Below, one piece after another: positions 34,609 to 51,303 of a stretch of DNA of 51,303 bases; positions within the stretch are counted from its first letter, which is position 1, and each line of letters starts with the position of its first letter. The stretch lies in IMG/VR virus record IMGVR_UViG_3300005288_000004, positions 1-51,303 of that record, one strand, 5' to 3'. Below the pieces are notes generated by a model that did no database searches, was not told the origin of the DNA, and was given only the letters and a program-made list of their open reading frames with translations. Both the position numbers and the translations under genes were made by a program. This DNA is from a virus.

Positions 34609-34794
34609 ATGACGTTGAGCCCCGAGCTAATCGCACTATCTGTCGTCCTATGGACATGGTTGATTGGCATGCTGATTGCCCCGTATTTCGAGCGACAGTT
34701 AGGCCCGGCCAGCTGGCCGGGCCGGGCCTTTGCTGGTCTTGCCCAACTCATGGAGCGCGGATGGAATGCCGCGACGCGTCGTGGCACGCGGTAA
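34609..34794 (+). CDS. small membrane protein before the integrase
   Basis: The protein is 61 aa, ATG with GGAAGG 7 nt upstream. One membrane helix (LIALSVVLWTWLIGMLIA) is followed by a Trp/Arg-rich basic end. It overlaps the integrase start by 29 bases, so both are in one transcript. A role in excluding related phages is possible, but without evidence beyond position. Confidence 0.6.
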   Translation: MTLSPELIALSVVLWTWLIGMLIAPYFERQLGPASWPGRAFAGLAQLMERGWNAATRRGTR

Positions 34795-35992
34795 GGGCGA
34801 GGGTGCGCTCTTCAAGGACGCCCGCGGTTTCTGGACCGTCCGCATCGAGCTGCCCAGCCATGATGGGAAGCGCCGGCAGAAGGTCATCCGCCGGAAAGAC
34901 AAGAAGCTGGCCATGGCCGAGATGACCAAGCTCAAGAAAGAGCTCAACCAGCTGGGCGATCTGCCGACGTCGAGCCTCACCTTGGAGAAATGGCTGCGGC
35001 GCTGGATCGACGACATCGCGCCGAACGAGGTCAGACCCAAGTCCTACGCCTCCTACAAGTCCACCGTCGACGGCTGGCTGATCCCACTGCTGGGGAAGCG
35101 AAAGATTGACTCACTCAGCGCGGACCACATCCGCGACATGTACAAAGCGATCATGAGTACACCCAAGGCGCACGGACTCCGCGGCCGTACAGACCTGCCG
35201 CCGGACACACCCATGGTCGGGCCGGACACCGCGATCAAAGCCCACGCCGTCCTGTCGTCCGCGCTCAAGACAGCCATGCGCGAAGGGAAAGCCACCCGGA
35301 ACGTCTGCGAAATGGTGGACCCACCACGCAAGGGCAAAGTGGAACAGGGCGCGCTCAGCACAGAGCAGGCCATCGAACTACTCGCGCACCTCACCACACG
35401 CGACGACCGGGCACTCTGGGCAACGTACCTGCTCACCGGGGCAAGGCGCGGCGAAATCCTCGGGCTCGAAGCCGACCGGGTAACGGACACCCTGGACCTG
35501 TCATGGCAGCTGCTCCGGATCACGGACATCAGCAAGGCGCCGGCCGACTACGAATACCGGCACCTCCGGGGAACGCTGTATCTCACGCGGCCGAAGTCCA
35601 AGAGTGGCTGGCGCATCATCCCGCTCGTCGAACCGCTCCGGTCCATCCTGGCGCTCCACATGCAGGGTCGTGGGGATGGGCTCGTGTTCCTTGACCGGGG
35701 AAACCCCTGGGACCCTGACGCCACAACCGATGCGTGGGCGAAGCTGCTGGCCGAGGCCGGGCTACCCAACGACGTCGTGCTCCACGGCGCCCGGCATACC
35801 GCCGTGGACCTGCTGGACGCTGCCGGAGTCGACTGGGACACCATCAAGGACATCGTCGGACACTCCACCACCAAGATGTCCAAGGCCTACCGATCCAAGC
35901 CAGACATGAAACGCCTCACCGGGGCGCTCGAACAGATGTCCCGGATGCTCGAACCGGCCAAGCCGGCCGCCGCCACGGTCGCGGACAACTGA
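34766..35992 (+). CDS. int: tyrosine integrase
   Basis: The protein is 408 aa. An N-terminal arm-binding part (GEGALFKDARGFWTVRI) and a core-binding SAM-like domain (LTLEKWLRRWIDDI) precede the catalytic domain. The catalytic residues are seen: Arg in TGARRGE (near 228), His-x-x-Arg in HGARHT (340-343), His in GHST (366) and the nucleophile Tyr in SKAYRS (375). The start at 34766 follows GGAGCGCGG; an upstream ATG at 34730 is possible. It integrates the phage at the tRNA-Thr site and, with an excisionase, reverses it. Confidence 0.96.
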   Translation: MPRRVVARGKGEGALFKDARGFWTVRIELPSHDGKRRQKVIRRKDKKLAMAEMTKLKKELNQLGDLPTSSLTLEKWLRRWIDDIAPNEVRPKSYASYKSTVDGWLIPLLGKRKIDSLSADHIRDMYKAIMSTPKAHGLRGRTDLPPDTPMVGPDTAIKAHAVLSSALKTAMREGKATRNVCEMVDPPRKGKVEQGALSTEQAIELLAHLTTRDDRALWATYLLTGARRGEILGLEADRVTDTLDLSWQLLRITDISKAPADYEYRHLRGTLYLTRPKSKSGWRIIPLVEPLRSILALHMQGRGDGLVFLDRGNPWDPDATTDAWAKLLAEAGLPNDVVLHGARHTAVDLLDAAGVDWDTIKDIVGHSTTKMSKAYRSKPDMKRLTGALEQMSRMLEPAKPAAATVADN

Positions 35993-36346
35993 TCACTCCG
36001 GCAGGAATCCGGGGAGCCTGTTCCCCCAGCGGATGTTCCGGAAGCGGGGCGGGCAGCGGCGGTACTCTTCGATGTCCCACTCCGAATCGGTGACCCTCCG
36101 GACGTTCTCCCTGGGCACCCACGCCCAGTGGGAATGGTTGTCGTCGTCGAACCACGAGACGATGATCCGCGTCGCCGTCCACCGGTCACCGCGGGCGTAG
36201 ACGGTCACGGTGCCGCCGCCAGCCAGAGGCACGTCGGCGGACACCTTCGGCAGGTGGCCGTACTCCCAAGATCTGGGGTCATCCCCCGGCCCGGGCTCTG
36301 ACCGGAGATACTCGTAGGTCGTGCCGTCCAGGGTGAAGGTGTGCAT
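35993..36346 (-). CDS. hypothetical 117-aa protein
   Basis: It starts MHTFTLDGTTYEYLR and is strand-rich with many Trp and Arg (DDDNHSHWAWVPRENVRRV). It converges with the integrase with no gap. TAGCAT lies 7 nt before the ATG, so it is likely leaderless and expressed in the lysogen. The family is not known. Confidence 0.75.
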   Translation of the reverse strand: MHTFTLDGTTYEYLRSEPGPGDDPRSWEYGHLPKVSADVPLAGGGTVTVYARGDRWTATRIIVSWFDDDNHSHWAWVPRENVRRVTDSEWDIEEYRRCPPRFRNIRWGNRLPGFLPE

Positions 36347-36404
36347 GGTCGCAATGCTATCGACACGACGAAGGGCGCCGCTCCACCGAGAGGCAGCGCG
36401 GGGC

Positions 36405-36410
36405 TATAAA
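36405..36410 (+). promoter_or_regulatory. -10 element of a leaderless promoter
   Basis: TATAAA ends 8 nt before the GTG at 36419. There is no ribosome site. It would drive the 47-aa gene and the HTH gene behind it. Confidence 0.65.
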
Positions 36411-36418
36411 GTGATCGG

Positions 36419-36562
36419 GTGAAACTTTTCGGCGTCATCCGCACCAAAGAGACCAGCACCATCGAAGTCGAAGCAGCCTCCTACCAAGATGGCCTCACCC
36501 AACTAGAGATGCAGGTCCCAGAGGGCTTCCAGCTCCTGTCGGTCAGAACCGAGAAGGACTGA
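36419..36562 (+). CDS. 47-aa protein at a leaderless promoter
   Basis: GTG start (MKLFGVIRTKETSTIEVEA). A short strand-helix-strand pattern ends ISL-type residues FQLLSVRTEKD. It stops 2 nt before the HTH gene, so it may serve as a translated leader for it. Family unknown. Confidence 0.62.
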   Translation: MKLFGVIRTKETSTIEVEAASYQDGLTQLEMQVPEGFQLLSVRTEKD

Positions 36563-36564
36563 CC

Positions 36565-36801
36565 ATGGGGGAAGTTGCCCCGCGCCGTTTCCTGACCGTC
36601 GAGCAAGTGGCCGAAGAATTGAACGTCGGCATCCCACTCGTCCGCGCCCTGCTGAAATCTGGGGAGCTCAGAGGTTTTCAGGTCGGTGGACGCGGCATGT
36701 GGCGGGTCGGAGCGGCTGACGTCGAGGAATACATCAGCCAGGCGTATGCCAAGACGGCGCGGATCATTGAGGCTGGAGATCTCGCTGACGAAGAGACCTG
36801 A
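36565..36801 (+). CDS. excisionase-like HTH protein
   Basis: The protein is 78 aa. FLTVEQVAEELNVGIPLV, then ELRGFQVGGRGMWRVGAADVEEYI: a MerR/HTH_17 winged helix (quoted in parts). It begins 2 nt after the 47-aa gene. Two Xis-type genes exist (the other at 32756). One may act in excision and the other in regulation; the sequence does not say which. Confidence 0.82.
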   Translation: MGEVAPRRFLTVEQVAEELNVGIPLVRALLKSGELRGFQVGGRGMWRVGAADVEEYISQAYAKTARIIEAGDLADEET

Positions 36802-37257: not shown

Positions 37258-37273
37258 GCGGAAACGACGAAAT

Positions 37274-37304
37274 GCCCCCAGCATCCATAGTGGATGCTGG
37301 GGGC
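37274..37304 (+). terminator. strong hairpin after the 92-aa gene
   Basis: Stem of 14 pairs, GCCCCCAGCATCCA with TGGATGCTGGGGGC, and a 3-nt loop. It is followed by GATTTC, so the T-run is weak. It likely ends the transcript. Confidence 0.75.
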
Positions 37305-37357
37305 GATTTCAGTTAGGGAACTTAACCGGCGCTTCGGGCCGTGCTGGATGAGGTTGA

Positions 37358-38149
37358 ATGGCGCGTATGCAAACTCTCCAAGTCTCAATGCCGTCGTTCA
37401 TGTCGCTTCGACTAGAGATGAAGTGGAACGGCAACCACCTGGCAACCGGAACGGGCTTCATCGTCATGCATGCTGACCGGCCTTACCTCGTCACCAACTG
37501 GCACAACTTGGCTGGCAGGAACCCGGGTACCAACGAGGTGATGAGCTCGCATGGCGTCACTCCCGATGAAGTGCACATCCTGCACAACACGAAGGATCAG
37601 CTTGGAACGTGGATGTTCAAATCCGAACGGCTCGTTGACATTGACGACAAGCCGCTGTGGCTAGAGCACCCGAGCGGCGGACGCCAGGTTGACGTCGCGG
37701 CGCTTCCCTTGACTAACACGGACGGCGTCCACTTGTTCCCCTACTCCCTCGATTACGGTCCAGAAGAAGATCCGGTGCTGCTCACACCTTCAACAGCTGT
37801 CAACATCGTCGGGTTTCCCTTCGCCCAAAGTTCAGTCGCCGGCATCGGCATTTGGGCCCGTGGAACCATAGCATCCGAACCCGAGCTGGATTATGGAGAA
37901 TGGCCGCGCTTTCTGATTGATAGCCGCACCAGACCGGGCCAGTCTGGCTCTCCGGTGGTCTTCTTCTCCCCGGGCGGTGCGGTGCTCAGGCGGAGCGGGA
38001 CCACGGCATTCGGCGGCCAAATCATTCAGCTTCTGGGAGTCTATTCAGGCAGGATCAACGATCAGTCCGATATTGGCATCGTCTGGAAAAATGACGTCAT
38101 AAGGGACATTGTGACCCAAACTTGGGTCCGTCCAGTGCCAGGCAATTAA
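37358..38149 (+). CDS. trypsin-like serine protease, prophage accessory gene
   Basis: The protein is 263 aa. It has the chymotrypsin-fold triad: His49 in VTNWHNL, Asp112 in VDVAALPL and Ser196 in GQSGSPVV. The glycine-rich entry GTGFIV is also present. No signal peptide or membrane segment is seen, so it probably acts in the cytoplasm. GAGG lies 5 nt before the ATG. Single cytoplasmic trypsin-like proteases in mobile elements can be effectors of phage defence or regulators; no partner gene is obvious here except the small genes nearby. Confidence 0.88.
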   Translation: MARMQTLQVSMPSFMSLRLEMKWNGNHLATGTGFIVMHADRPYLVTNWHNLAGRNPGTNEVMSSHGVTPDEVHILHNTKDQLGTWMFKSERLVDIDDKPLWLEHPSGGRQVDVAALPLTNTDGVHLFPYSLDYGPEEDPVLLTPSTAVNIVGFPFAQSSVAGIGIWARGTIASEPELDYGEWPRFLIDSRTRPGQSGSPVVFFSPGGAVLRRSGTTAFGGQIIQLLGVYSGRINDQSDIGIVWKNDVIRDIVTQTWVRPVPGN

Positions 38150-38289: not shown

Positions 38290-39411
38290 TTGAGTCGATC
38301 ACGCCTGCTTGTGCGCAGCACCATCGGGAGCCAGTTCGGCCGGCGCAACAGCTTGAACCTGATCAGGCTGGTGCTAGCGTCTTCCGTCATAGTCTCCCAT
38401 GCCTGGTCGCTCGGGGGATTTGGGCCTGAGCCGCGAATCGGCTCCACCACCGTCGGCTCACTTGCGGTACTTTGCTTCTTTGCCATTAGCGGTTACCTGA
38501 TCACGATGAGCCGTGAGTCAACGCCGGGCTGGCGATACCTCTGGCATCGCTTCCTACGTATCTTCCCTGGTTACTGGGTTTGTGTACTGTTTATCGCCGC
38601 AGTCGTGGCGCCCCTTGCCTGGCTCAAGTACCAGACAACTTTCGATGGGTACCCGCTGGAAGGGGCATTCAAATACGTGGTCGGAAACTTCGCGTTGAAG
38701 ACCACCCTCGTGCCGTCCATCGCTGGCACGCAAACCACACTGAACCCCAGCTTTCAATACTGGAATGGTGCCGCTTGGAGCCTGTTCTTCGAATTCTTGT
38801 GCTACATACTGGTCGCCATCTTGGCTTACCTTCGGCTTCTCAAGCCCTTAGGTGTGGGAATCGTGCTTGCCGGTGGATCGGCGCTCCTGCTCGCATGGGA
38901 AGTGGTGCCCGGGCCGATGGAGGCTTTGCTCTTCAGGAGTCAAGATGCCTACCGCCTGGTCACGACGGGGACTGTTTTTGCCGCAGGCTCGATGCTGTAC
39001 CTCTACCGTGACCGCATAGCCTGCTCTTGGCGAATCGCCGCAGGCTCGGCAGTGATTCTGGGCCTTGGCCTGGTGTTCCTCAAGCACCCCGAGTGGGCGG
39101 TAGCGGGGCCGGTCGCCTACTTGATGATCTGGCTGGGAATCCGGCTCCCGCTCCACAACTTAGCCAAGACTGACATCTCATACGGGACCTATATTTACGC
39201 ATACCCTGTCGCCCAGTTGCTAACCATCTATGGTGTGAACGACTTGGGCCTTGTCCCGTACGTTGCCGTCACCTTCCTAATCGTGGTGCCACTGGCTGCT
39301 GCCAGTTGGTTCGGGATCGAGAGGAAGGCTCTGCGCCTGAAGCACTTTGGGGCTACCAAGCGAAATGCCCCTGCGCGTCATCTCGATCCCGAACCTGCTC
39401 GCTTGACCTAG
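38290..39411 (+). CDS. OafA-type membrane acyltransferase
   Basis: The protein is 373 aa with about ten membrane helices. It carries the acyltransferase-3 signature: SLNLIRLVLASSVIVSHAW (the His in the first helix), CFFAISGYLI, and RFLRIFPGYWV. The TTG start follows GGGGGAA. OafA-like enzymes move acetyl or other acyl groups onto surface sugars at the membrane. In the prophage it would O-acylate the host glycan and so change the phage receptor. It lies next to the exported tailspike paralog and the polymerase-like gene. Confidence 0.9.
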   Translation: MSRSRLLVRSTIGSQFGRRNSLNLIRLVLASSVIVSHAWSLGGFGPEPRIGSTTVGSLAVLCFFAISGYLITMSRESTPGWRYLWHRFLRIFPGYWVCVLFIAAVVAPLAWLKYQTTFDGYPLEGAFKYVVGNFALKTTLVPSIAGTQTTLNPSFQYWNGAAWSLFFEFLCYILVAILAYLRLLKPLGVGIVLAGGSALLLAWEVVPGPMEALLFRSQDAYRLVTTGTVFAAGSMLYLYRDRIACSWRIAAGSAVILGLGLVFLKHPEWAVAGPVAYLMIWLGIRLPLHNLAKTDISYGTYIYAYPVAQLLTIYGVNDLGLVPYVAVTFLIVVPLAAASWFGIERKALRLKHFGATKRNAPARHLDPEPARLT

Positions 39412-39520: not shown

Positions 39521-41380
39521 CTAAAAGCGCTGGTTGTAGATCATTTCCACGGCGATGATGTTTACCGTCGCGGAAACTGTATCTGCAGCATCATCCCCCA
39601 GACGCATGAGCTGGACGCACAGGGTCCCGCCAGGAGTGGAGGGGAATCCGAATTCGTTGGCATTCCATTCGGTGACACTGGTTCGACCTGCAGTTGGAGA
39701 CGCCGCGGCAATCAAATCCCGGTTTGTAGGTATTGCGGTGGGATCGTCGCCAACGGCAACTGTCCTGCCAACCCAGCGGAAGACGACGTTTCCTAGGCCT
39801 GCGGTAGCCCAAGTGACACGGATGGTGCATTTCCCATTGGCGTCGGCGTCCGCCGGGATCGGGATCTGCGCCGTGATCGAATTAATCGCAGCGTCATTCA
39901 GCGGGTACACGACGAACTGGCCCAGGGAAACTGTCGAATTTGTAGAGCTGAGCACCCGAACAGGCACGATGGCGCGTCCGATACGCTCATTCACAGAACG
40001 ACCGTCCGAGATGAAGCCGCTGTTCATGTTCGTTTGGTTGTTGATGAAGTTGCGTAGCTTGAATCGCCCGGGGCCGACAGAGCCAGCTATGTTGATCAAC
40101 GTGTTCGTCGCCGCACCGTTTATGGTGAGGTTGTTGAACATGAGCGAGCCGGCCGTCTGCTGAATGAAGGTGGCGGGTGGGTTGAGGCCGGACGTTCCTA
40201 GAACTGTGTTGGTGAAGTGATTTGCCCTGGTTCCCGATCCCGCTGACGCTTGGCTGATGACTGAGGTGCTCGCCCGCCCGGTTGGGAGGTATACGCGAGT
40301 GTTCGTGAAGGTGCAATCTTGGGCATACTCCAGGTCAATATTGACGTACGTGTCCGGCGCGGCTTGTGTACCCGTGCCCTTCCCCTCAATGTTCAGGTTT
40401 ACGAACTGAAGGTTGCTTGAAGCTGCTCCGAGCGTCTGGTTGCCGGTGATCCTCAGGTCGGGACCGTAGCTGCTGTGAATTGCCAGCGTGGTTATATGGA
40501 TCCCGTCCGACACGGCGACCACTGTCTCACCCTCTGCGTCAGCGAACAGGACGGCAGGGATAGTTCCACTACCGCCGCAAAGCTGGACGTATACGCAGTG
40601 CATCCTGGAATCCCACATTTCACGAATTTCCAGCCCGCAGCCGCCGTTGTTATTCGAGACCCGGATGTTGTTGAGGTAGGAAAGGCTTGACCGGCTGATC
40701 TTCACCACACTGCCGGCCTTGTCGCCCCCATGGAGCGCCAGGTTGTGCAGCTCCATCTGTACGCGCTGGTTTGCTGCTTGCCCGATCCCGGATGCGTTGA
40801 TGATAGGCGTTGTCCCAGCTGTACGCTTCAGACGTGTGGCAAAGATGTTGCCTGAAGCACTAACGCCCTGCCCCAAGAGGCGGACCATTTTGTTCAGCGG
40901 CCATGTCAGCCCACCGTTGACGACCGAATCTCCGTAGGGAAGGACAACGTCACCGCCGCCCGCTGTGGCGCAGGCATTGATGGCGTTCTGGATGGCCGCG
41001 GTGTCGTCTGTTAGGCCATCGAAACGGGCACCAAACTTGCGTACGTCAAACGAATTGTCGAAGGCAAATGTGCCAGAAAGATCCGGTATCTGCGTGCGGG
41101 GTATTTTCAAATCGGTGCCCAGTGTCGCCACACCCGATGCCGTGCCCTTTTCCGCAGTGGGAATGTAGGACGTGGTAGGCGGGTTTTTGTCACCAGGGGC
41201 AGCATTGGCACTGTTCGCTCCAAGAGCTGAAATGGCGGAAATGCCGGTGATAGCAGTAACCAGAGTTCCAAGTCTGAGAAGGCCGCGCCGCTTCACTCCG
41301 GCGTCAGTCCCGGATGGGGGCGGTTCCATCTGCCCGCTCACGCTAGCCACGGGAGCACCGTGATCCGGTCGGCCTGGCAA
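39521..41380 (-). CDS. Tat-exported tailspike paralog (pectin-lyase-like)
   Basis: The protein is 619 aa. The N-terminus has a twin-arginine signal (KRRGLLRLGTLVTAI at 30-44) and a cut site after SANA (60). The rest follows the phage's own tailspike (43647-46085) in order: the linker GVATLGTDLKIPRTQIPDLS, a GLTDDTAAIQNAIN start of the beta-helix, GLEIREMWDSRMHCVYVQ, SLMFNNLTING, and a C-terminal strand domain ending VEMIYNQRF. The spike has GVAGLGSDSK, GLRASEWFNSYINYTYFQ, ELMLSNVSMNG and VELRYERSF. The start is uncertain (41380 TTG or 41329 ATG). It is probably a secreted surface-glycan lyase or binder. Confidence 0.88.
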   Translation of the reverse strand: MPGRPDHGAPVASVSGQMEPPPSGTDAGVKRRGLLRLGTLVTAITGISAISALGANSANAAPGDKNPPTTSYIPTAEKGTASGVATLGTDLKIPRTQIPDLSGTFAFDNSFDVRKFGARFDGLTDDTAAIQNAINACATAGGGDVVLPYGDSVVNGGLTWPLNKMVRLLGQGVSASGNIFATRLKRTAGTTPIINASGIGQAANQRVQMELHNLALHGGDKAGSVVKISRSSLSYLNNIRVSNNNGGCGLEIREMWDSRMHCVYVQLCGGSGTIPAVLFADAEGETVVAVSDGIHITTLAIHSSYGPDLRITGNQTLGAASSNLQFVNLNIEGKGTGTQAAPDTYVNIDLEYAQDCTFTNTRVYLPTGRASTSVISQASAGSGTRANHFTNTVLGTSGLNPPATFIQQTAGSLMFNNLTINGAATNTLINIAGSVGPGRFKLRNFINNQTNMNSGFISDGRSVNERIGRAIVPVRVLSSTNSTVSLGQFVVYPLNDAAINSITAQIPIPADADANGKCTIRVTWATAGLGNVVFRWVGRTVAVGDDPTAIPTNRDLIAAASPTAGRTSVTEWNANEFGFPSTPGGTLCVQLMRLGDDAADTVSATVNIIAVEMIYNQRF

Positions 41381-41765
41381 TCCAGCGAATTACTGTTATA
41401 AGAGTCAACACTTGAGCCTCTCTAAACCCATAAGTTGTCGTCTCTAGAAGCTATTCACTTGGCTAAACATAAAACACAGTGGAGGCTACGCGTTTATTTT
41501 GGTAACAGGTACTTGGTTGGAATCGATGGATACCTTAGCCGAGAACTCGGGGACCACGTCACCACTTGCTAGTGGTGACTAGGTCCCCGAAAGGGCGGCC
41601 AACCGGCATGACAGATCAAGCCCTGTGCGTGGAAAGCTGGACAAAGCATCCGCAGCCAGCCTTCCAGATGCCCGAGCCCCGTCCTGTCTCGGCGAAATCC
41701 CGTGGATACGGATCTACCTGTCACCGGCGATGGTGCCAGCGCCGAGGACGGTCTTTCGGGCCGCG
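41381..41765. other. intergenic region of the glycan island
   Basis: No convincing gene is found in this 385-bp stretch. It is richer in A/T than its neighbours near 41390-41540 and holds TATAAC on the minus strand (41395-41400), a possible -10 for the exported tailspike paralog, plus the large hairpin at 41548-41589. Confidence 0.5.
41548..41589. terminator. large two-part hairpin
   Basis: CGGGGACC pairs with GGTCCCCG. After a 3x3 internal loop, TCACCACT pairs with AGTGGTGA around a TGCT loop. No T-run follows on either strand, so it could be a terminator or an RNA element between the two leftward genes. Confidence 0.5.
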
Positions 41766-43238
41766 CTATCGTGCCGGGGCGAAGGAGTAGAAGCGGTCTT
41801 TGGCGCGGCGCTTTGGAACGGTTGGGCTATCGTCGCGGAAGGACGCTGCGGCCATTCCAAGGGCCAAGAATACGATGGCGTTCCAGGGGTTCTGGTCAAG
41901 CATGTCCACCGAGACGGACCGCCAAATTATGGCAACAATTATCGACCCCGCGCCAATGCCCCACAATCGACGCTCCCCACTGGACTTGAAGAGTGAGCCG
42001 AACATTGGCTGAAGCATGGTGACTGCCATGCCAGCCGCACCCAGCAGGCCAGACTCCAGCACTATTTTCAGCCAGCTGTTATCTACCGTTGCCCGCTTTG
42101 CCGCTGCGGGGTCGATGTCTACGCCGTGCTGATCTGCGAAGAGTGATGGGTCGTAACCGCCGAAGCCGCTGCCGAGCGCCAGGCCCCCATCAGGCCCTTG
42201 CAGCCTCGTGACCCACACTCCGCTCCGCTGGGCCGCACTTGCGTCCGTGCCAGAGATTATTTCTGCAAATGATTCCACCAAGCGCCCGAGTTCTTTCGAC
42301 GCGGCGAACTGCAATAGCAGGAGGGCTGCAGAGACGGCTGCGATACCCAGCACGACGCCCCGTTTGCCAGCCGCCAGGCAGAGCACCAAGAGCCCCAGAG
42401 CGACGGCAACGAGGCCTCCACGTGAGCCTGACGATATGACGCCGAAGGTGAAGAGCCCCATGAGGCCGAGGCAGCACACCTTCAAGCGCATGGGGAGCTT
42501 CACTAGCAGGCAGGCCGCCAGGGCAAGGGTCCCGCAGACGAGGACGAGGGCAAGGTTGTTGGGGTTCCAGATGAATCCGGTGTACCGGGTCAGCCAGCTG
42601 CTGGTGCTGGCGTTGTAGGTTGTCCCTGACGTGAGGAGGCCGCCCCACGTGCCCTTCATAAGGCCAGCCATTTGCAAGAACACTCCGGCCATCTGGAACA
42701 CGCACGTAGCTACGAGGCCGAAGAGGACCCCCCTGTAGTTGGGCCTTTGGTACGCGAGCCAGAGCAAGGGGATAAACATGGCCCAGTTGAGGAACCGAGC
42801 AACGCCGTACCCGGTCGATGCTGCGCCAATCGTGCTGATGACCAAGGAAAGCAACAGAACAGCGAGCCCGAAGGCCAGGAGCTTGGGCATTGGCCGGATC
42901 GACTTACGGCTCAGGGCCACGAAGATGGCAACTACCGCAACAAGGACCGCTAGGCCGAACCGTGCCGTGGTGCCAATCGCGCCGAGGGAAGGGGCCCAGC
43001 ATGTTACGAATATGACGGAGGCGTACAGCCATCCAATCTTTTCCCTGGGGATCATAGCCCCGGCGCCTACTGACCGTGCGATCCATGCGAAGACCAGAAC
43101 CGCTATCGGGGCGAACGCGAGTTTCAAGTCAACGAAAGCAAGAAAACACGAGGCCAAGGCGGCGGCAACGAGGGCCGCGCCCTGAGTTACCGCTTGCTTC
43201 CTTGCGCCGGCATCAATTTTTTGAGTGGTGGCATTCAT
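41766..43238 (-). CDS. O-antigen polymerase/ligase-like membrane protein
   Basis: The protein is 490 aa with about 12 membrane helices. The large extracytoplasmic loop and sequence landmarks fit the Wzy/WaaL family: GTTYNASTSSWLTRYTGF, FGVISSGSRGGLVAVA, and GGYDPSLFADQHGVD followed by DNSWLKIVLESGLLG. The ATG has GAGGATG upstream. Such proteins polymerise or ligate lipid-linked sugars outside the membrane. With the acyltransferase it would alter the host glycan. Phages that convert serotype in Gram-negative hosts carry similar pairs. Confidence 0.85.
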   Translation of the reverse strand: MNATTQKIDAGARKQAVTQGAALVAAALASCFLAFVDLKLAFAPIAVLVFAWIARSVGAGAMIPREKIGWLYASVIFVTCWAPSLGAIGTTARFGLAVLVAVVAIFVALSRKSIRPMPKLLAFGLAVLLLSLVISTIGAASTGYGVARFLNWAMFIPLLWLAYQRPNYRGVLFGLVATCVFQMAGVFLQMAGLMKGTWGGLLTSGTTYNASTSSWLTRYTGFIWNPNNLALVLVCGTLALAACLLVKLPMRLKVCCLGLMGLFTFGVISSGSRGGLVAVALGLLVLCLAAGKRGVVLGIAAVSAALLLLQFAASKELGRLVESFAEIISGTDASAAQRSGVWVTRLQGPDGGLALGSGFGGYDPSLFADQHGVDIDPAAAKRATVDNSWLKIVLESGLLGAAGMAVTMLQPMFGSLFKSSGERRLWGIGAGSIIVAIIWRSVSVDMLDQNPWNAIVFLALGMAAASFRDDSPTVPKRRAKDRFYSFAPAR

Positions 43239-43281
43239 CGGCGCATCCTCGTGTAGCGTCCCCCGCGTTGTCCCTAGTCAC

Positions 43282-43287
43282 TATACT
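43282..43287 (+). promoter_or_regulatory. -10 element of a leaderless promoter
   Basis: TATACT ends 6 nt before the ATG at 43294. No ribosome site is present. Confidence 0.65.
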
Positions 43288-43293
43288 GACTGG

Positions 43294-43650
43294 ATGAACC
43301 CTTGGAAGCACGCGCTTGTCGCGGTGGTCGCTCTCTCAGTTAGCGCACTCGTGTGCTTCACTGGCGAATCTCCCACCCCGACTCCCGCAATGGCATCCGG
43401 GTACACGAATACTTCACTCTCCTCCTACATCGACGCAGTCGACCGGAAATACTCCGGTGCCGTGACTGCTGATGACGCTGCCACTATTGCCATCGGAGCC
43501 TGCGAGGCTTTTGACGCCCACCCTGTCAGTGCATATGCATCGTTCACAGAACGATCCGTCACCTCAGGGCTGAGCAAGAGTCAGGCGGATTTCATGGTGA
43601 GGACAGCCGTCGAGAAGGTCTGTCCTCACCATAGGTCCGACTTGCCCTAA
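43294..43650 (+). CDS. small secreted protein, DUF732-like
   Basis: The protein is 118 aa. It has a signal peptide (MNPWKHALVAVVALSVSALV) and then the DUF732 pattern: SSYIDAVDRKYSG, DDAATIAIGACEAF, and a second Cys near the C-terminus (VEKVCPHH). The two Cys may form a disulphide. It overlaps the tailspike stop by 4 bases on the opposite strand. DUF732 proteins are secreted and of unknown function. In the prophage it might act at the surface with the glycan genes. Confidence 0.8.
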   Translation: MNPWKHALVAVVALSVSALVCFTGESPTPTPAMASGYTNTSLSSYIDAVDRKYSGAVTADDAATIAIGACEAFDAHPVSAYASFTERSVTSGLSKSQADFMVRTAVEKVCPHHRSDLP

Positions 43651-46085
43651 AAGGACCGCTCGTACCTGAGTTCCACCTGGTAGATCCTGACATCGTTGCC
43701 GGTCAGCGTGTCCGTAGCGTCTGCGCCGTTGCGGCTCAGCGTGACCGGGACAATCTGCCCCGGGGTGGCTGTGGCCGCGAAGGTGAAGGTTGTCTGCATC
43801 ATCTGGTTAGCAGTGGCCGGGACGGCGACAACAACGGGCTGAACTTCCGCCGCCGTGGCAACGGTCGTGCTGCCGCCCTGGACGCCGGGCTTGGCCCTTG
43901 CCTCAAGTCGTACATTGCCGGATGTCCCGGGCGTGTACCAGAGCACCCGCACCCGAAGGGGCCGCCCGTTCGATGCGTCGGATGGGATCGTGACATTCCC
44001 GCACCAGTCGGTCTTGACGGACTGGAGCATCTTGTAGACGACCTGGTCGGCGGTCAGTGTTGGTGCGATGACGGTTGCGCCCTGCTGGACGTAGCGGGCG
44101 GGGACTTCGACGGAGCCGAGGTTGGTCGTGCTGCCTGAGCGCTCATCGTGAATCAGCTTGGACCTGTCGGAGACCATGAAGTTGGACATGCGGAAGGCAT
44201 TGATTGCAACCGATGCCCCCACATGGACAAATGCTGTGGTCGGGCTGCCGTTCATAGACACGTTGGACAGCATCAGCTCGCCCGCCGTCATGTCGATGAA
44301 GTACGGGACCACGGCGTTACCGTCCACCACGGTGCCAGCCCACTTGTTTCCGCTGAAGCTGGTGTTACTGAATTTCACTGGGCGGGACGGCTGGACGGCC
44401 GTCCCCTTCATTTCGGCGTGTGGTGCCGTGCATGAAGGGCCGAGATGGAGGAACGAATCCGACATGTGGAAGTCGCCTACGCGGTCCAGATCAAGCAGTG
44501 GGTAGTCCCCGTCGTTGCGCTCCATCTTGCAGTTCGTCATCAGCACGGCAAGCGTCCAATCCTGGCCCGAGGCGTAGCTCGCATCGTTGGACGTGACGCG
44601 AAGGTCGGTCCCAGTGTTACCTTCCCACTCGCAACCGATGAAGTGGATAGTGTTTCCGCCAGCGCCAGCGGAGACGAGCGGACCGGGGCTATCGAGCAGT
44701 ACGGCGGGGCTGGTGCGGCCGCTACCTAGCTGCTGGAAATAGGTGTAGTTGATATATGAGTTGAACCACTCGGAGGCCCTGAGGCCTACGCCAACGTTGT
44801 TGAAGAACCGGCAATGCTCGATGGTGCTGTCCGAGACGCGCACCAGTTCCACCAGCATGCCGGTCTTGTTGGTGCCGTTGAACTCGATGTCCTTCAGCCA
44901 AACCCTGATCCGACCAGTGGCGTCGTAACCGCCAGAAGTGCCGACGCCCCGGAGGATCTGGCCAGTGAATGACCCCTTGCGGCGGAACCGCGTTCCCCGG
45001 ACGCCGGTTGCACCAACCGGGTTGATGTCTTCGCCTTCAATCTTGATCTTGGGACCGACTGGCAGGTTGACCGTAGTAGCGAAGCCGTAGTCACCGCCGG
45101 GGGCGATGATGGTTAGTCCGGCGCCGGTGGCGGCGTAGTTGGCTGCCGCGTAATCAAGGATCGCCTGGAGCTTGGGGCCGTTGTCGGTAGAGGTCGTGTT
45201 GGCATCGGCCTTCATGCCCCATGCCGGGTCCGTAGCGAAGGTGACGCCGAAGGCCAGCCCCACCGCTGGGCGAGGTTCGGCGGCCGGCACGTAGGTGGTG
45301 GATAGGTCCCAGTTCGCAGCGTTGTAGCTCGCGCCCGAAGTGAAGTTGACCTTTGCGGACACCACATCACCGTTCGGGCTGAGTACTTTGTCGCCCGCGA
45401 CGTACGCCGTGGTGGCCTTCCACTTGGGGACAAAGGCGGCAGAAAGGTCACTAACGGAGAGGCGCTGGGGGATATTCGTTTCCAGGAGCTTCGAGTCTGA
45501 TCCGAGACCAGCAACTCCGGACGCGGCGCCCCTGGTAGCGGCGTCCATTTTCGCTACGACAGTGGGGTTGGCGGTAACGACGGCATCAGCGGCGGCACGA
45601 GTGGCTGATGTGCTGTCACCAAGCGCCGTAGCGATGGCAGTGTCTGCTGGGACTCCTGCGGTGGCCGCGGCAGCTTCGGCGGCGGCCTGTGCAGCCTCGG
45701 CGTCAGCTACGGCGCTAGCCAGTGCGGCCGCGGCAGCTCCGGCTGCATCGGCCCCGGCAGTTGAAGCGGCTGCTGCTGCTGCCTGTGCGGCTTCCTTTGC
45801 CGCGATCGCCTCGTTGCGGAGACCGTCGTAGGAGTAGAAGAATCCCTCGAACGCGCCGGACTTCCACTTGACGCGGGGAAGGGTGACGATGCACGGCTGA
45901 GTGAAGCCGTATGCGTTGGACATGAGCGGATTCGTGAGCGGCAATCCGGATGGGTCCTTGATCGCGATGGGCGTGACGCCAGCGGTGTCGTCCGCGTCGT
46001 AAAGGTACACAGTTCCGTTGCGGACCACGTTCTGAGGGTTCAGCGGGTCCACCACGAGCTGCATGTCCAGTGGGTAGTCGGTCAT
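43647..46085 (-). CDS. tailspike / receptor-binding protein (pectin-lyase-like)
   Basis: The protein is 812 aa. The N-terminal 90 residues (MTDYPLDMQLVVDPLNPQN, VTLPRVKWKSGAFEGFFYS) are a tail-attachment domain. An Ala-rich coiled coil follows (about 95-190), then a linker, a pectin-lyase-like beta-helix (from about 280) and a C-terminal strand domain ending VELRYERSF. AAGGAG precedes the ATG. It binds and may cut surface glycan. Its partner in the genome is the exported paralog at 39521-41380. Confidence 0.9.
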   Translation of the reverse strand: MTDYPLDMQLVVDPLNPQNVVRNGTVYLYDADDTAGVTPIAIKDPSGLPLTNPLMSNAYGFTQPCIVTLPRVKWKSGAFEGFFYSYDGLRNEAIAAKEAAQAAAAAASTAGADAAGAAAAALASAVADAEAAQAAAEAAAATAGVPADTAIATALGDSTSATRAAADAVVTANPTVVAKMDAATRGAASGVAGLGSDSKLLETNIPQRLSVSDLSAAFVPKWKATTAYVAGDKVLSPNGDVVSAKVNFTSGASYNAANWDLSTTYVPAAEPRPAVGLAFGVTFATDPAWGMKADANTTSTDNGPKLQAILDYAAANYAATGAGLTIIAPGGDYGFATTVNLPVGPKIKIEGEDINPVGATGVRGTRFRRKGSFTGQILRGVGTSGGYDATGRIRVWLKDIEFNGTNKTGMLVELVRVSDSTIEHCRFFNNVGVGLRASEWFNSYINYTYFQQLGSGRTSPAVLLDSPGPLVSAGAGGNTIHFIGCEWEGNTGTDLRVTSNDASYASGQDWTLAVLMTNCKMERNDGDYPLLDLDRVGDFHMSDSFLHLGPSCTAPHAEMKGTAVQPSRPVKFSNTSFSGNKWAGTVVDGNAVVPYFIDMTAGELMLSNVSMNGSPTTAFVHVGASVAINAFRMSNFMVSDRSKLIHDERSGSTTNLGSVEVPARYVQQGATVIAPTLTADQVVYKMLQSVKTDWCGNVTIPSDASNGRPLRVRVLWYTPGTSGNVRLEARAKPGVQGGSTTVATAAEVQPVVVAVPATANQMMQTTFTFAATATPGQIVPVTLSRNGADATDTLTGNDVRIYQVELRYERSF

Positions 46086-46780: not shown

Positions 46781-47419
46781 CTAAAGGGCTCCGAACAGGT
46801 CCAGCAGGAACTGTTCATCGGGGGTGTAAGCAGGCGACGCAGCGGGCGTGGCCGAGCCTTGGGCGGCGAGTCCGCCCCATACGGTGGACGGGTCGATTCG
46901 CCCGTAGATTTTGCCGTTGCCGGTGGAGTAGTTCGAGGTGTCCACGATCCGTTCGGTGTGCAGGTGCGGGCCGAGCTGGCCGTCTCTGCCGCCGGAGGAG
47001 TCCCCGGACAACGCCACGAGGTCTCCCTCGTTGACGAACTGCCCTCGGGAGACTTTGAACTTGGAGAGGTGGGCGTAGACGTCGAGGTCACCGGGCGAGT
47101 ACTGGATGACCATCAGTCGTCCGCCGAAGCTCTTGTAGAAGCCCCATCGGTCGAAGTACCCGCCGGGTCCCCAGCTGTCGTTGCCCGGTAAGTTGACGTC
47201 CCAGTCCGCCCAGATCACGGTGCCGGAGCGGGCGGCACGGACGGGGGTGCCGACAGGGGTGCCGAGGTCAGTCCCGGCGTGGCCGTTCGGCTGGTAGTTC
47301 CCGTACAGCCACACGAGGTAACCCACTCCCGCTGCTGGGCTGGAGTTGGCGACGACGCCTGCCGTGGCGCCTTCCCCGAATCCTTGGGTGACGCGGTGCT
47401 CTGCTGAAACTGGCCTCAT
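46781..47419 (-). CDS. endolysin, M23 peptidase type
   Basis: The protein is 212 aa from the ATG at 47419, which overlaps the upstream stop (ATGA). The M23 fold fills most of it: [12 protein letters not shown] (His47, Asp51), YAHLS (116-119) and GPHLHTE (His152, His154). The C-terminus ([17 protein letters not shown]) is short, with no clear wall-binding domain. There is no signal peptide, so it depends on the holin. It cuts peptide cross-links in peptidoglycan. The tape measure carries another M23 domain. Confidence 0.92.
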
Positions 47420-48093
47420 GGCTTGACCCCTAGTCCGTCGTCGTAAGTACACGTGTATTGAGTGGAGCCGGGCGGGTTGGGGGTGCAGGTCTGCTTGCGA
47501 CCGGTTGCGTCCATGATGGTGATCGACGTCGGCGCGGATCCGGCAGTGCCGGGGGGTCCGTCCGCGCCGTCTTGCCCGTCAGCGCCGGCAGGGCCCTGTG
47601 GTCCAGGCTCACCTGGCGGTCCTTGGGGTCCGGGCACTGTCGATGCGGCCCCGTCCTTACCGGCCGGACCGGGTGCGCCGGGAGATCCAGCAGCACCACT
47701 AGCACCGGGCGAGCCGGTCGCGTCCACGCCATTAGGACCGACAGGACCAACCGGCCCCATAGGTCCAGGCTTCCCGTCCTTGCCGTCCATGCCTGGCAGG
47801 CCCGGAGGCCCGTCAGCGCCCTTTGGTCCGGCGATGGCCTCGGTTGGATTCTGTTGGACCTTGTCGGCCTTGGCGCACAAGTCCCGGTCGTCAACCAGCA
47901 GCTTGCCTTGCGCCTCGCAGATTGTTTGGATGTCCTGTGCGAGCGTCTGACTGTTTGCCTGCGCCGTGTTCTTGTCAGCCGTCGCCGCCACCTGGTTGTA
48001 GACCGTCCAAGCGAGCCCGGCGATGATCACCAATGCGAGGACGAAGAATGCCCATCGCGGCGGGAACTGTTCGCGACGTGAATGCTCACTCAT
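47416..48093 (-). CDS. membrane-anchored collagen-like protein
   Basis: The protein is 225 aa. Residues 14-32 form one membrane helix, followed by a coiled region with two Cys ([16 protein letters not shown]). From about 89 to 186 the chain is Gly-X-Y collagen-like, rich in Pro, Asp and Lys. The end has two more Cys ([15 protein letters not shown]). It sits just before the endolysin. A trimer standing out from the membrane is likely. It could be a spanin-like or surface-adhesion part; its job in lysis is unknown. Confidence 0.85.
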
Positions 48094-50501: not shown

Positions 50502-51303
50502 TACCACGCCCTCCGGTACTTGTTCCGGACGGAGGCGATCACTGTCCCGAAGCCTGTCATCTGGATCGTCAGCGGCCGGTCCTGCCCGCGAGGGATGGCA
50601 ACGAACGCCGACGCAGGGTCAAGCTCCGTCGTGCGGTCCACGGGCGACAGGATCGACCGCGTGGCCGCATCCCACAGCCCATACCAGAGCACCTGCCCGT
50701 CGATCGGGTCAGTGTCCAGCTGCACCGCGTATCCGGCGGGGATGTCGAACGGCACGATGATGTCATTACCGCCGACCCCGAAGGAGACCGCCGTAGTCGG
50801 TCCGACCGCAGTCCACACCGCATAAGCCGGCACGTCGCCGTCGTTCGTGAACGTTGCCGAGCCGAGCGAGCCACCCGGAGACAGGTAGTGGATCGCGTCG
50901 TCAGGGTAGCCGTAGGTGACGCGGTCCTCTTCGGTGATGTAGTAGGGCCGCATGTCACCCTGGGCCCATGACTTCGTGACCGTCTCGCCGAGCCAGTACG
51001 GCTTATCAGCCAGAAGGTTGATGGCGTACTGAGCCCAGCCGCGCTGCACCGGGTCATGGTTCATCTCATCGTCAGACCCCTTGAGCCGCAGCCCGAGGGT
51101 CCGGCGGCCGCCGTTAGGGACGGCCGCCGTCCACGTTCCCTCCATGTCCGGATCCAAGCTCTGCCAGAACGCCCGATCGCGGGCCATGAACTCCGTAGAG
51201 CCGGTGTCCGAGTAGAGGTACAGCGGCCAGAACACGTCCCGGTCATTCGTGGACGTGCCACGGTGCCGCGACCCGGCCACCGCTGGCGAAGTGCTAGACA
51301 ACC
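50501..51303 (-). CDS. distal tail protein, C-terminal part (gene crosses the window ends)
   Basis: This continues the gene that starts at 305. Landmarks are DVFWPLYLYSDTGSTEF, GRRTLGLRLKGSDD, then ADKPYWLGETV and a C-terminal strand region. The segment 51174-51303 duplicates 1-130. An apparent TTG start at 51301 is not the true start. The whole protein of 325 aa joins tail tube to tail tip. Confidence 0.88.
   Translation of the reverse strand, partial: LSSTSPAVAGSRHRGTSTNDRDVFWPLYLYSDTGSTEFMARDRAFWQSLDPDMEGTWTAAVPNGGRRTLGLRLKGSDDEMNHDPVQRGWAQYAINLLADKPYWLGETVTKSWAQGDMRPYYITEEDRVTYGYPDDAIHYLSPGGSLGSATFTNDGDVPAYAVWTAVGPTTAVSFGVGGNDIIVPFDIPAGYAVQLDTDPIDGQVLWYGLWDAATRSILSPVDRTTELDPASAFVAIPRGQDRPLTIQMTGFGTVIASVRNKYRRAW
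51174..51303. repeat. 130-bp direct terminal repeat (right copy)
   Basis: This is an exact copy of bases 1-130. Removing one copy gives a 51,173-bp circle in which the interrupted tail gene is whole. Confidence 0.95.

Follow-up and report, generated by a model that had tools for sequence, protein, structure and literature searches.

A predicted Tat-exported homologue of the tailspike, encoded between Wzy-like and O-acyltransferase genes of a temperate Arthrobacter-type phage

The window analyzed here, i.e., the whole 51,303-nucleotide stretch of the IMG/VR record IMGVR_UViG_3300005288_000004, carries an identical 130 bp at both ends (positions 1–130 and 51174–51303) and thus corresponds to a full circle of 51,173 bp, opened inside a tail gene. 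It contains genes for terminase, portal, protease, scaffold, capsid, tape-measure and minor tail proteins, an M23 endolysin, a spike and a tyrosine integrase and, as read from these genes, is the complete circular genome of a temperate siphovirus. Its closest phages infect Arthrobacter, the N-terminal domain of its spike (P0002) has an 80% identical counterpart in a Pseudarthrobacter genome, and its hosts are soil Arthrobacter/Pseudarthrobacter-type bacteria. Near the integrase, the phages Faja, Shoya and BrayBeast are 78–80% identical in DNA to positions 36306–36746, which sets this segment apart from its flanks. Amid the tail and lysis genes a membrane-anchored collagen-repeat protein is encoded (47416–48093, minus strand; PF01391), and similar proteins are present in the related prophages L094 and L097.

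The P0001 gene is located in the slot between spike and integrase (Table 1), flanked by the genes of a Wzy-like polymerase, whose product had no match in phage records or in 197 Micrococcaceae genomes, and of an O-acyltransferase. The latter gene adjoins that of a trypsin-like protease (37358–38149, plus strand; PF13365 and phrog_7688, of no known function), ahead of which lies a 15-pair terminator-like hairpin (37273–37305). The spike and Wzy genes are separated by a divergent gene (43225–43650, plus strand), whose product, with the likely start at 43294, is a secreted protein of the DUF732 family, known mainly from mycobacteria. Between the Wzy gene and P0001 there are a strong hairpin and an AT-rich leader, with a G+C content of 44% at 41381–41560 against 62% for the whole window, and a sigma-70 consensus scan of the leader produced nothing. 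The hairpin, the leader and the divergent gene together suggest that P0001 probably forms its own transcription unit, which may be expressed in the lysogen.

Table 1. Features of the spike–integrase region (window positions, except for the last two rows)
Feature	Position	Strand	Remarks
Tyrosine integrase	34730..35992	+	other border of the slot
O-acyltransferase (Acyl_transf_3; PHROG O-acetyltransferase)	38290..39411	+	convergent with P0001; Pfam E 1.5e-20; phrog_3333 E 2.3e-25
P0001, predicted Tat-exported spike-domain protein	39521..41380	-	619 codons from TTG 41380; Pfam PF12708 E 2.8e-9
C-terminal beta-sandwich-like domain of P0001	39521..39883	-	common to spike; low-to-medium confidence, pLDDT ~60
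Right-handed beta-helix of P0001, residues 108-460	40001..41059	-	AlphaFold2 pLDDT mostly 70-92; Foldseek
Phage-tail-type linker of P0001 (YIPTAEKGTASGVATLGTDLKIPRTQIPDLSG)	41060..41170	-	also in spike and prophage tail fibres
Twin-arginine signal peptide of P0001 (KRRGLLR ... SANA/A)	41201..41329	-	read from sequence; RR invariant in aligned family
AT-rich leader of P0001	41381..41545	-	TATAAC at ~41400; probable own promoter
19-pair hairpin between wzy and P0001	41546..41591	-	-37 kcal/mol
Wzy/O-antigen-ligase-like polytopic membrane protein	41766..43238	-	Pfam PF04932 (Wzy_C) E 3.4e-6, below curated cut-off
P0002, virion tailspike	43647..46085	-	N-terminal virion domain (1-95), coiled coil, linker, KWK module, beta-helix, C-terminal domain
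Arthrobacter terricola JH1-1 chromosomal Tat-spike gene	L084 8263-9888	-	near EPS cluster
Prophage spike partner of the A. terricola gene	L033 10517-12040	+	

The open reading frame of P0001 begins with TTG at 41380, but ATG at 41329 gives a more usual signal peptide and hence is the likely start. The predicted product combines the features of a Tat substrate, i.e., a twin-arginine motif, a hydrophobic segment and an A-x-A cleavage site, and this signal (K-R-R-G-L-L-R ... S-A-N-A/A) is kept in relatives, with both arginines in 9/9 aligned sequences, in agreement with the Tat signal proposed in the original prediction. The latter had also described landmarks shared with the virion tailspike in the same order, from the linker to the C-terminal end motif, and this likeness proved to be real: BLASTP of P0001 against P0002 gave 115 bits (E = 1e-30) and 155/589 identities (26%), spanning P0001 from residue 57 to the last residue against spike residues 253–812. 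The quoted motif pairs GVATLGTDLK/GVAGLGSDSK and VEMIYNQRF/VELRYERSF sit at aligned positions, the linkers align as a second BLASTP segment (P0001 66–105 against spike 173–218, 43% identity), and the MAFFT identity of the two proteins was 29%. P0001 is thus, by alignment, a homologue of P0002 through the beta-helix and the C-terminal domain. The same alignment bears out the claimed lack of the virion-attachment N-terminal domain, common to the spikes of Arthrobacter phages, and of the coiled coil; the KWKxxTAY module is missing as well.

The original prediction went further and saw in P0001 a copy of the tailspike turned into an exported protein. An exported-type spike-domain protein does, by sequence, accompany the spike in the same phage, but a conversion of the phage's own spike is not established, because the N-terminus belongs to a Tat-plus-linker family of chromosomal exopolysaccharide (EPS) loci and the divergence is large, and with 26–29% identity the word "copy" is too strong. 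A recent duplication inside the phage was rejected on the same identity values; besides, G121, a degraded prophage remnant, shares 30% identity with the spike against 23% with P0001. P0001 therefore appears as an old paralogue of the spike or a separately acquired homologue; an identity of 26% points to an old relation and gives no guarantee that the two proteins share a glycan.

Among 44 related loci the next-best spike for P0001 reached only 38 bits over 195 aa at the generic beta-helix start (a linker-only match aside), and within 50,697 phage records P0001 matched just the linker and the N-terminal helix part of a few spikes. Outside the pair, the shared C-terminal half was seen only in the prophage remnant G121, in searches of 395 Micrococcaceae genomes with P0001 and of 197 with the C-terminal part of the spike. 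Peptide-pattern scans found no relatives of P0001, P0002 or the pair alignment in viral contigs and none of P0001 in genome contigs, and a plasmid search gave no match; relatives came solely from the conserved spike N-terminal domain and from whole-genome searches. With three copies of the shared C-terminal domain known, the presence of two of them in a single phage, at a distance of 2.3 kb, hardly looks accidental.

The AlphaFold2 model of P0001, built on an alignment of just three sequences, had a whole-model mean pLDDT of 61.9, with the C-terminal domain weaker than the beta-helix, and the model of the spike was weak (56.2). The top Foldseek matches of P0001 were phage tailspikes and C5-epimerases/lyases, and WceF of Pantoea stewartii (PDB 6tgf) matched too, with TM-scores low (mostly 0.2–0.5), as expected for such models, so that only the fold class can be read from them; the BFVD matches were pectate-lyase-type phage tail proteins. 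In the structure prediction suggested with the original claim, both models matched the tailspike-like 6tgf (E 1.6e-5 for P0001 and 1.1e-5 for P0002), while a PDB sequence search with P0001 gave no WceF match. The best structural matches of P0001 were the pectate-lyase-type tailspikes of HK620, Sf6 and Klebsiella K2-2 and ORF18 of Geobacillus virus E2, and PHROG tail spike profiles matched as well; in contrast to such spikes, P0001 carries an export signal and lacks the virion-attachment domain. Catalytic residues could not be assigned in P0001, and the models are shallow (mean pLDDT of 62 and 56 for P0001 and P0002, respectively).

The N-terminal part of P0001 has a different affiliation. Its residues ~13–156 match Micrococcaceae genome proteins at 44–64% identity, the shared Tat-linker part reaches up to 66%, and the first ~105 aa are closer to this bacterial family (50–66% identity) than to the spike. 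In a profile search, 15/395 Micrococcaceae genomes carried the Tat-plus-linker module, in which a conserved Tat signal and YVPxAEKGxxSGVATLDxxxKIPxxQxPDLS precede a variable spike-type domain; P0001 conforms to this pattern. The domains following the linker vary freely: there are beta-helices, fibre-like domains and SGNH esterases that carry a C-terminal domain. Several of the domains are those of spikes. Three SGNH members showed 30–38% identity to prophage spikes over long stretches (E down to 8e-53); when the genomes of the chromosomal members of SGNH type were searched for partner spikes, nothing besides the Tat proteins came up. In Arthrobacter terricola JH1-1 a more diverged Tat protein was 78% identical over 487 aa to a prophage spike from that strain; next to its gene lies another one with a Tat-like start (L084 6153–7979). 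The chromosomal genes of the family adjoin acyltransferase, hexapeptide transferase, glycosyltransferase, Wzz and Wzy genes. Nine phage gene sets detected no virion genes near the EPS-locus members, and for these the possibility of unrecognized prophages was rejected. This Tat-linker family of the Micrococcaceae is undescribed and located mostly at chromosomal exopolysaccharide loci; Tat-exported spike domains are thus recurrent there, and P0001 is the phage-borne example. If active, the chromosomal members act in EPS loci outside phages, and phage defence is not needed to explain the family.

The slot between spike and integrase was surveyed in the 44 loci with the spike N-terminal domain, including IMG/VR and genome loci. 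It often holds surface-modifier genes (exported esterases, acyltransferases, Wzy), which in most related phages are oriented against the late genes. Faja encodes there an acyltransferase-like protein (gp34, by sequence) and a Wzy-like one (gp35), Shoya (gp26) and Bauer (gp30) exported SGNH proteins, MrSmee an O-acetyltransferase, Peas an OafA-type protein and an acetyltransferase, and Maja a Wzy-like protein. Exported soluble candidates were present in 29/44 loci (17 after small lipoproteins and poor gene calls were removed by hand) and multi-TM proteins in 20/44. Three tested slot proteins were confirmed as GDSL hydrolases by Pfam, and L031 gave a weak Wzy_C match; the remaining class labels were read from motifs (GDS, hydrophobic profile). 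In most of the loci the exported enzyme did not match the spike of its own locus, but in four (the window, L030, L036 and Shoya; E<=1e-3) it did, against 0.55 expected by shuffling (P=0.001), or three against 0.51 without the window (P=0.009). This is moderate evidence, since the proteins of L030, L036 and Shoya belong to a single esterase subfamily and are not fully independent. The Arthrobacter slot esterases (Shoya gp26, Bauer gp30, L030, L036) resemble P0001 in location and in an N-terminal hydrophobic export/anchor segment, and those of Shoya, L030 and L036 in homology to the esterase domain of their own spike; they differ in being SGNH hydrolases instead of beta-helix proteins and in having lipoprotein/anchor signals in place of the Tat-linker. 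The exported SGNH esterases of L016, L022, L013, L036, L090 and Shoya share PPPVSxKVxxYYxxN after the signal or lipobox in front of varied catalytic domains, apparently a second modular family of exported morons.

The assumption of the original prediction that no Tat-exported tailspike relative had been described does not hold for bacteria: WceF of P. stewartii, encoded in an EPS cluster, has a Tat signal and a tailspike-like trimeric structure, is ~25% identical to a phage spike cutting the same EPS, and acts on its glycan with lectin-like agglutination and slow cutting (PMC7949094). P0001 resembles it in the Tat signal and, according to a shallow model, in the tailspike-like beta-helix, but WceF is chromosomal, Gram-negative and part of a host EPS operon, while P0001 belongs to a temperate phage and lies beside a homologous spike. 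Location in a host EPS cluster is characteristic of the chromosomal relatives, but not of P0001, which lies in a phage beside Wzy and acyltransferase genes. WcaM, from the colanic acid cluster of E. coli, resembles P0001 by description and is a beta-helix protein. Like P0001 it is a predicted Tat substrate (SRRTFL; PMC7549933), but it is chromosomal and belongs to an EPS cluster.

From the phage side, the nearest parallel is seroconversion. In Pseudomonas phage D3, Wzy-type genes change the receptor polysaccharide by Wzy exchange. To our knowledge, no known seroconversion cassette includes an exported homologue of the phage's own spike. Phage-borne O-acyltransferases, as in the window, occur in D3 and among the gtr/oac genes of Shigella and Salmonella phages; alteration of phage sensitivity by phage O-acetylation is established, and for temperate phages of Klebsiella an exclusion via acetylation/deacetylation has been suggested (PMC13123978). 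The window combines a putative polymerase (with Wzy_C below the curated cut-off) and an O-acyltransferase in a D3-like manner, albeit in a phage of a Gram-positive host. In the open-access literature we found no phage coding for an exported homologue of the spike it carries. Tat-exported tailspike-like enzymes are already known in bacteria, while a phage-borne one beside a homologous spike is apparently new.

In the most likely reading, with a probability of about one half, P0001 is an enzyme which is exported, processes polysaccharide and belongs to a lysogenic-conversion cassette; its substrate would be the glycan of the spike, and superinfection exclusion its presumed benefit. The cassette of the temperate Arthrobacter/Pseudarthrobacter phage would consist of the Wzy-like polymerase, the Tat-exported spike domain and the O-acyltransferase. 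The beta-helix, probably trimeric, would be exported in folded state by the Tat system and, outside the membrane, would bind and most likely cleave or trim the surface polysaccharide targeted by the spike, or a close relative of it. Polymerase exchange, acylation and the action of P0001 would edit the coat of the lysogen, so that phages using this glycan would adsorb less well and superinfection would be reduced. The conversion-cassette reading draws on the full-length homology of the helix and C-terminal domain to the own spike (E=1e-30), with G121 as the sole further match to the C-terminal half in the genomes searched, on the loss of the virion parts together with the Tat-type signal, and on the adjoining Wzy-like and O-acyltransferase genes, of types known from receptor-changing phages. 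Further arguments come from the same slot in related phages, often with exported or multi-TM surface modifiers and with own-spike matches above the shuffled expectation, from the chromosomal Tat-linker relatives at EPS genes, the 78% identical spike pair of A. terricola and the WceF precedent, and from the apparent own transcription unit. A possible stripping or masking of the receptor, one of the roles offered originally, fits the Wzy and O-acyltransferase neighbours and the related phages.

The main rival is that P0001 represents a host-type EPS-maturation enzyme, trimming or remodelling the matrix like WceF, captured together with the Wzy gene as a fitness moron with no anti-phage role and resembling the spike only through shared Wzy-type polysaccharides. 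The 50–66% identity of its N-terminal 105 aa to chromosomal EPS-locus proteins, the EPS genes around those relatives, to which the phage cassette is similar, and the precedent of WceF speak for this explanation. Against it stand the C-terminal domain, which the own spike shares and which was found elsewhere only in a prophage remnant, unexpected for a random host gene, and the varied surface modifiers in the slot of related phages. We regard it as possible, at odds clearly below even.

Two other roles appear improbable. The lectin-like agglutination and slow cutting of WceF, together with the lack of an assignable active site, would suit a non-catalytic lectin or decoy, coating or adsorbing to the receptor glycan and blocking spikes, but the opening of the P0001 helix is of the PF12708 lyase/epimerase type, and related phages have several clear enzymes among the neighbours in the slot. 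Equally doubtful is a protein made late in the lytic cycle which would keep progeny from being trapped by stripping the receptor off the dying cell and debris: P0001 does lie on the late-gene strand downstream of the spike, but the divergent gene, the strong hairpin and the AT-rich leader part it from the late operon, and slot genes in related phages mostly run against the late genes. The originally suggested role in progeny release is less favoured because P0001 apparently makes up a transcription unit by itself.

Phage spikes, lysogenic conversion and the WceF-like EPS-trimming enzymes of bacteria, usually treated apart, meet in P0001, which would probably enable the infected cell to remodel by itself the sugar coat that its phage recognizes and, by means of the spike, grips and probably cuts. 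If the conversion-cassette reading is true, the exported protein marks the glycan recognized by an uncharacterized spike, the A. terricola pair illustrates a route from a spike domain to a host enzyme, and many SEA-PHAGES Arthrobacter phages offer a test, with an edited receptor predicted in their lysogens. Tentatively, exported homologues of the own receptor-processing spike domain may be a general anti-superinfection device of temperate phages and, after capture, of their hosts, placed beside the polymerase/acyltransferase cassette and removing or editing the receptor read by the spike, with the Tat-linker as a vehicle swapping spike domains between phages and host EPS loci.
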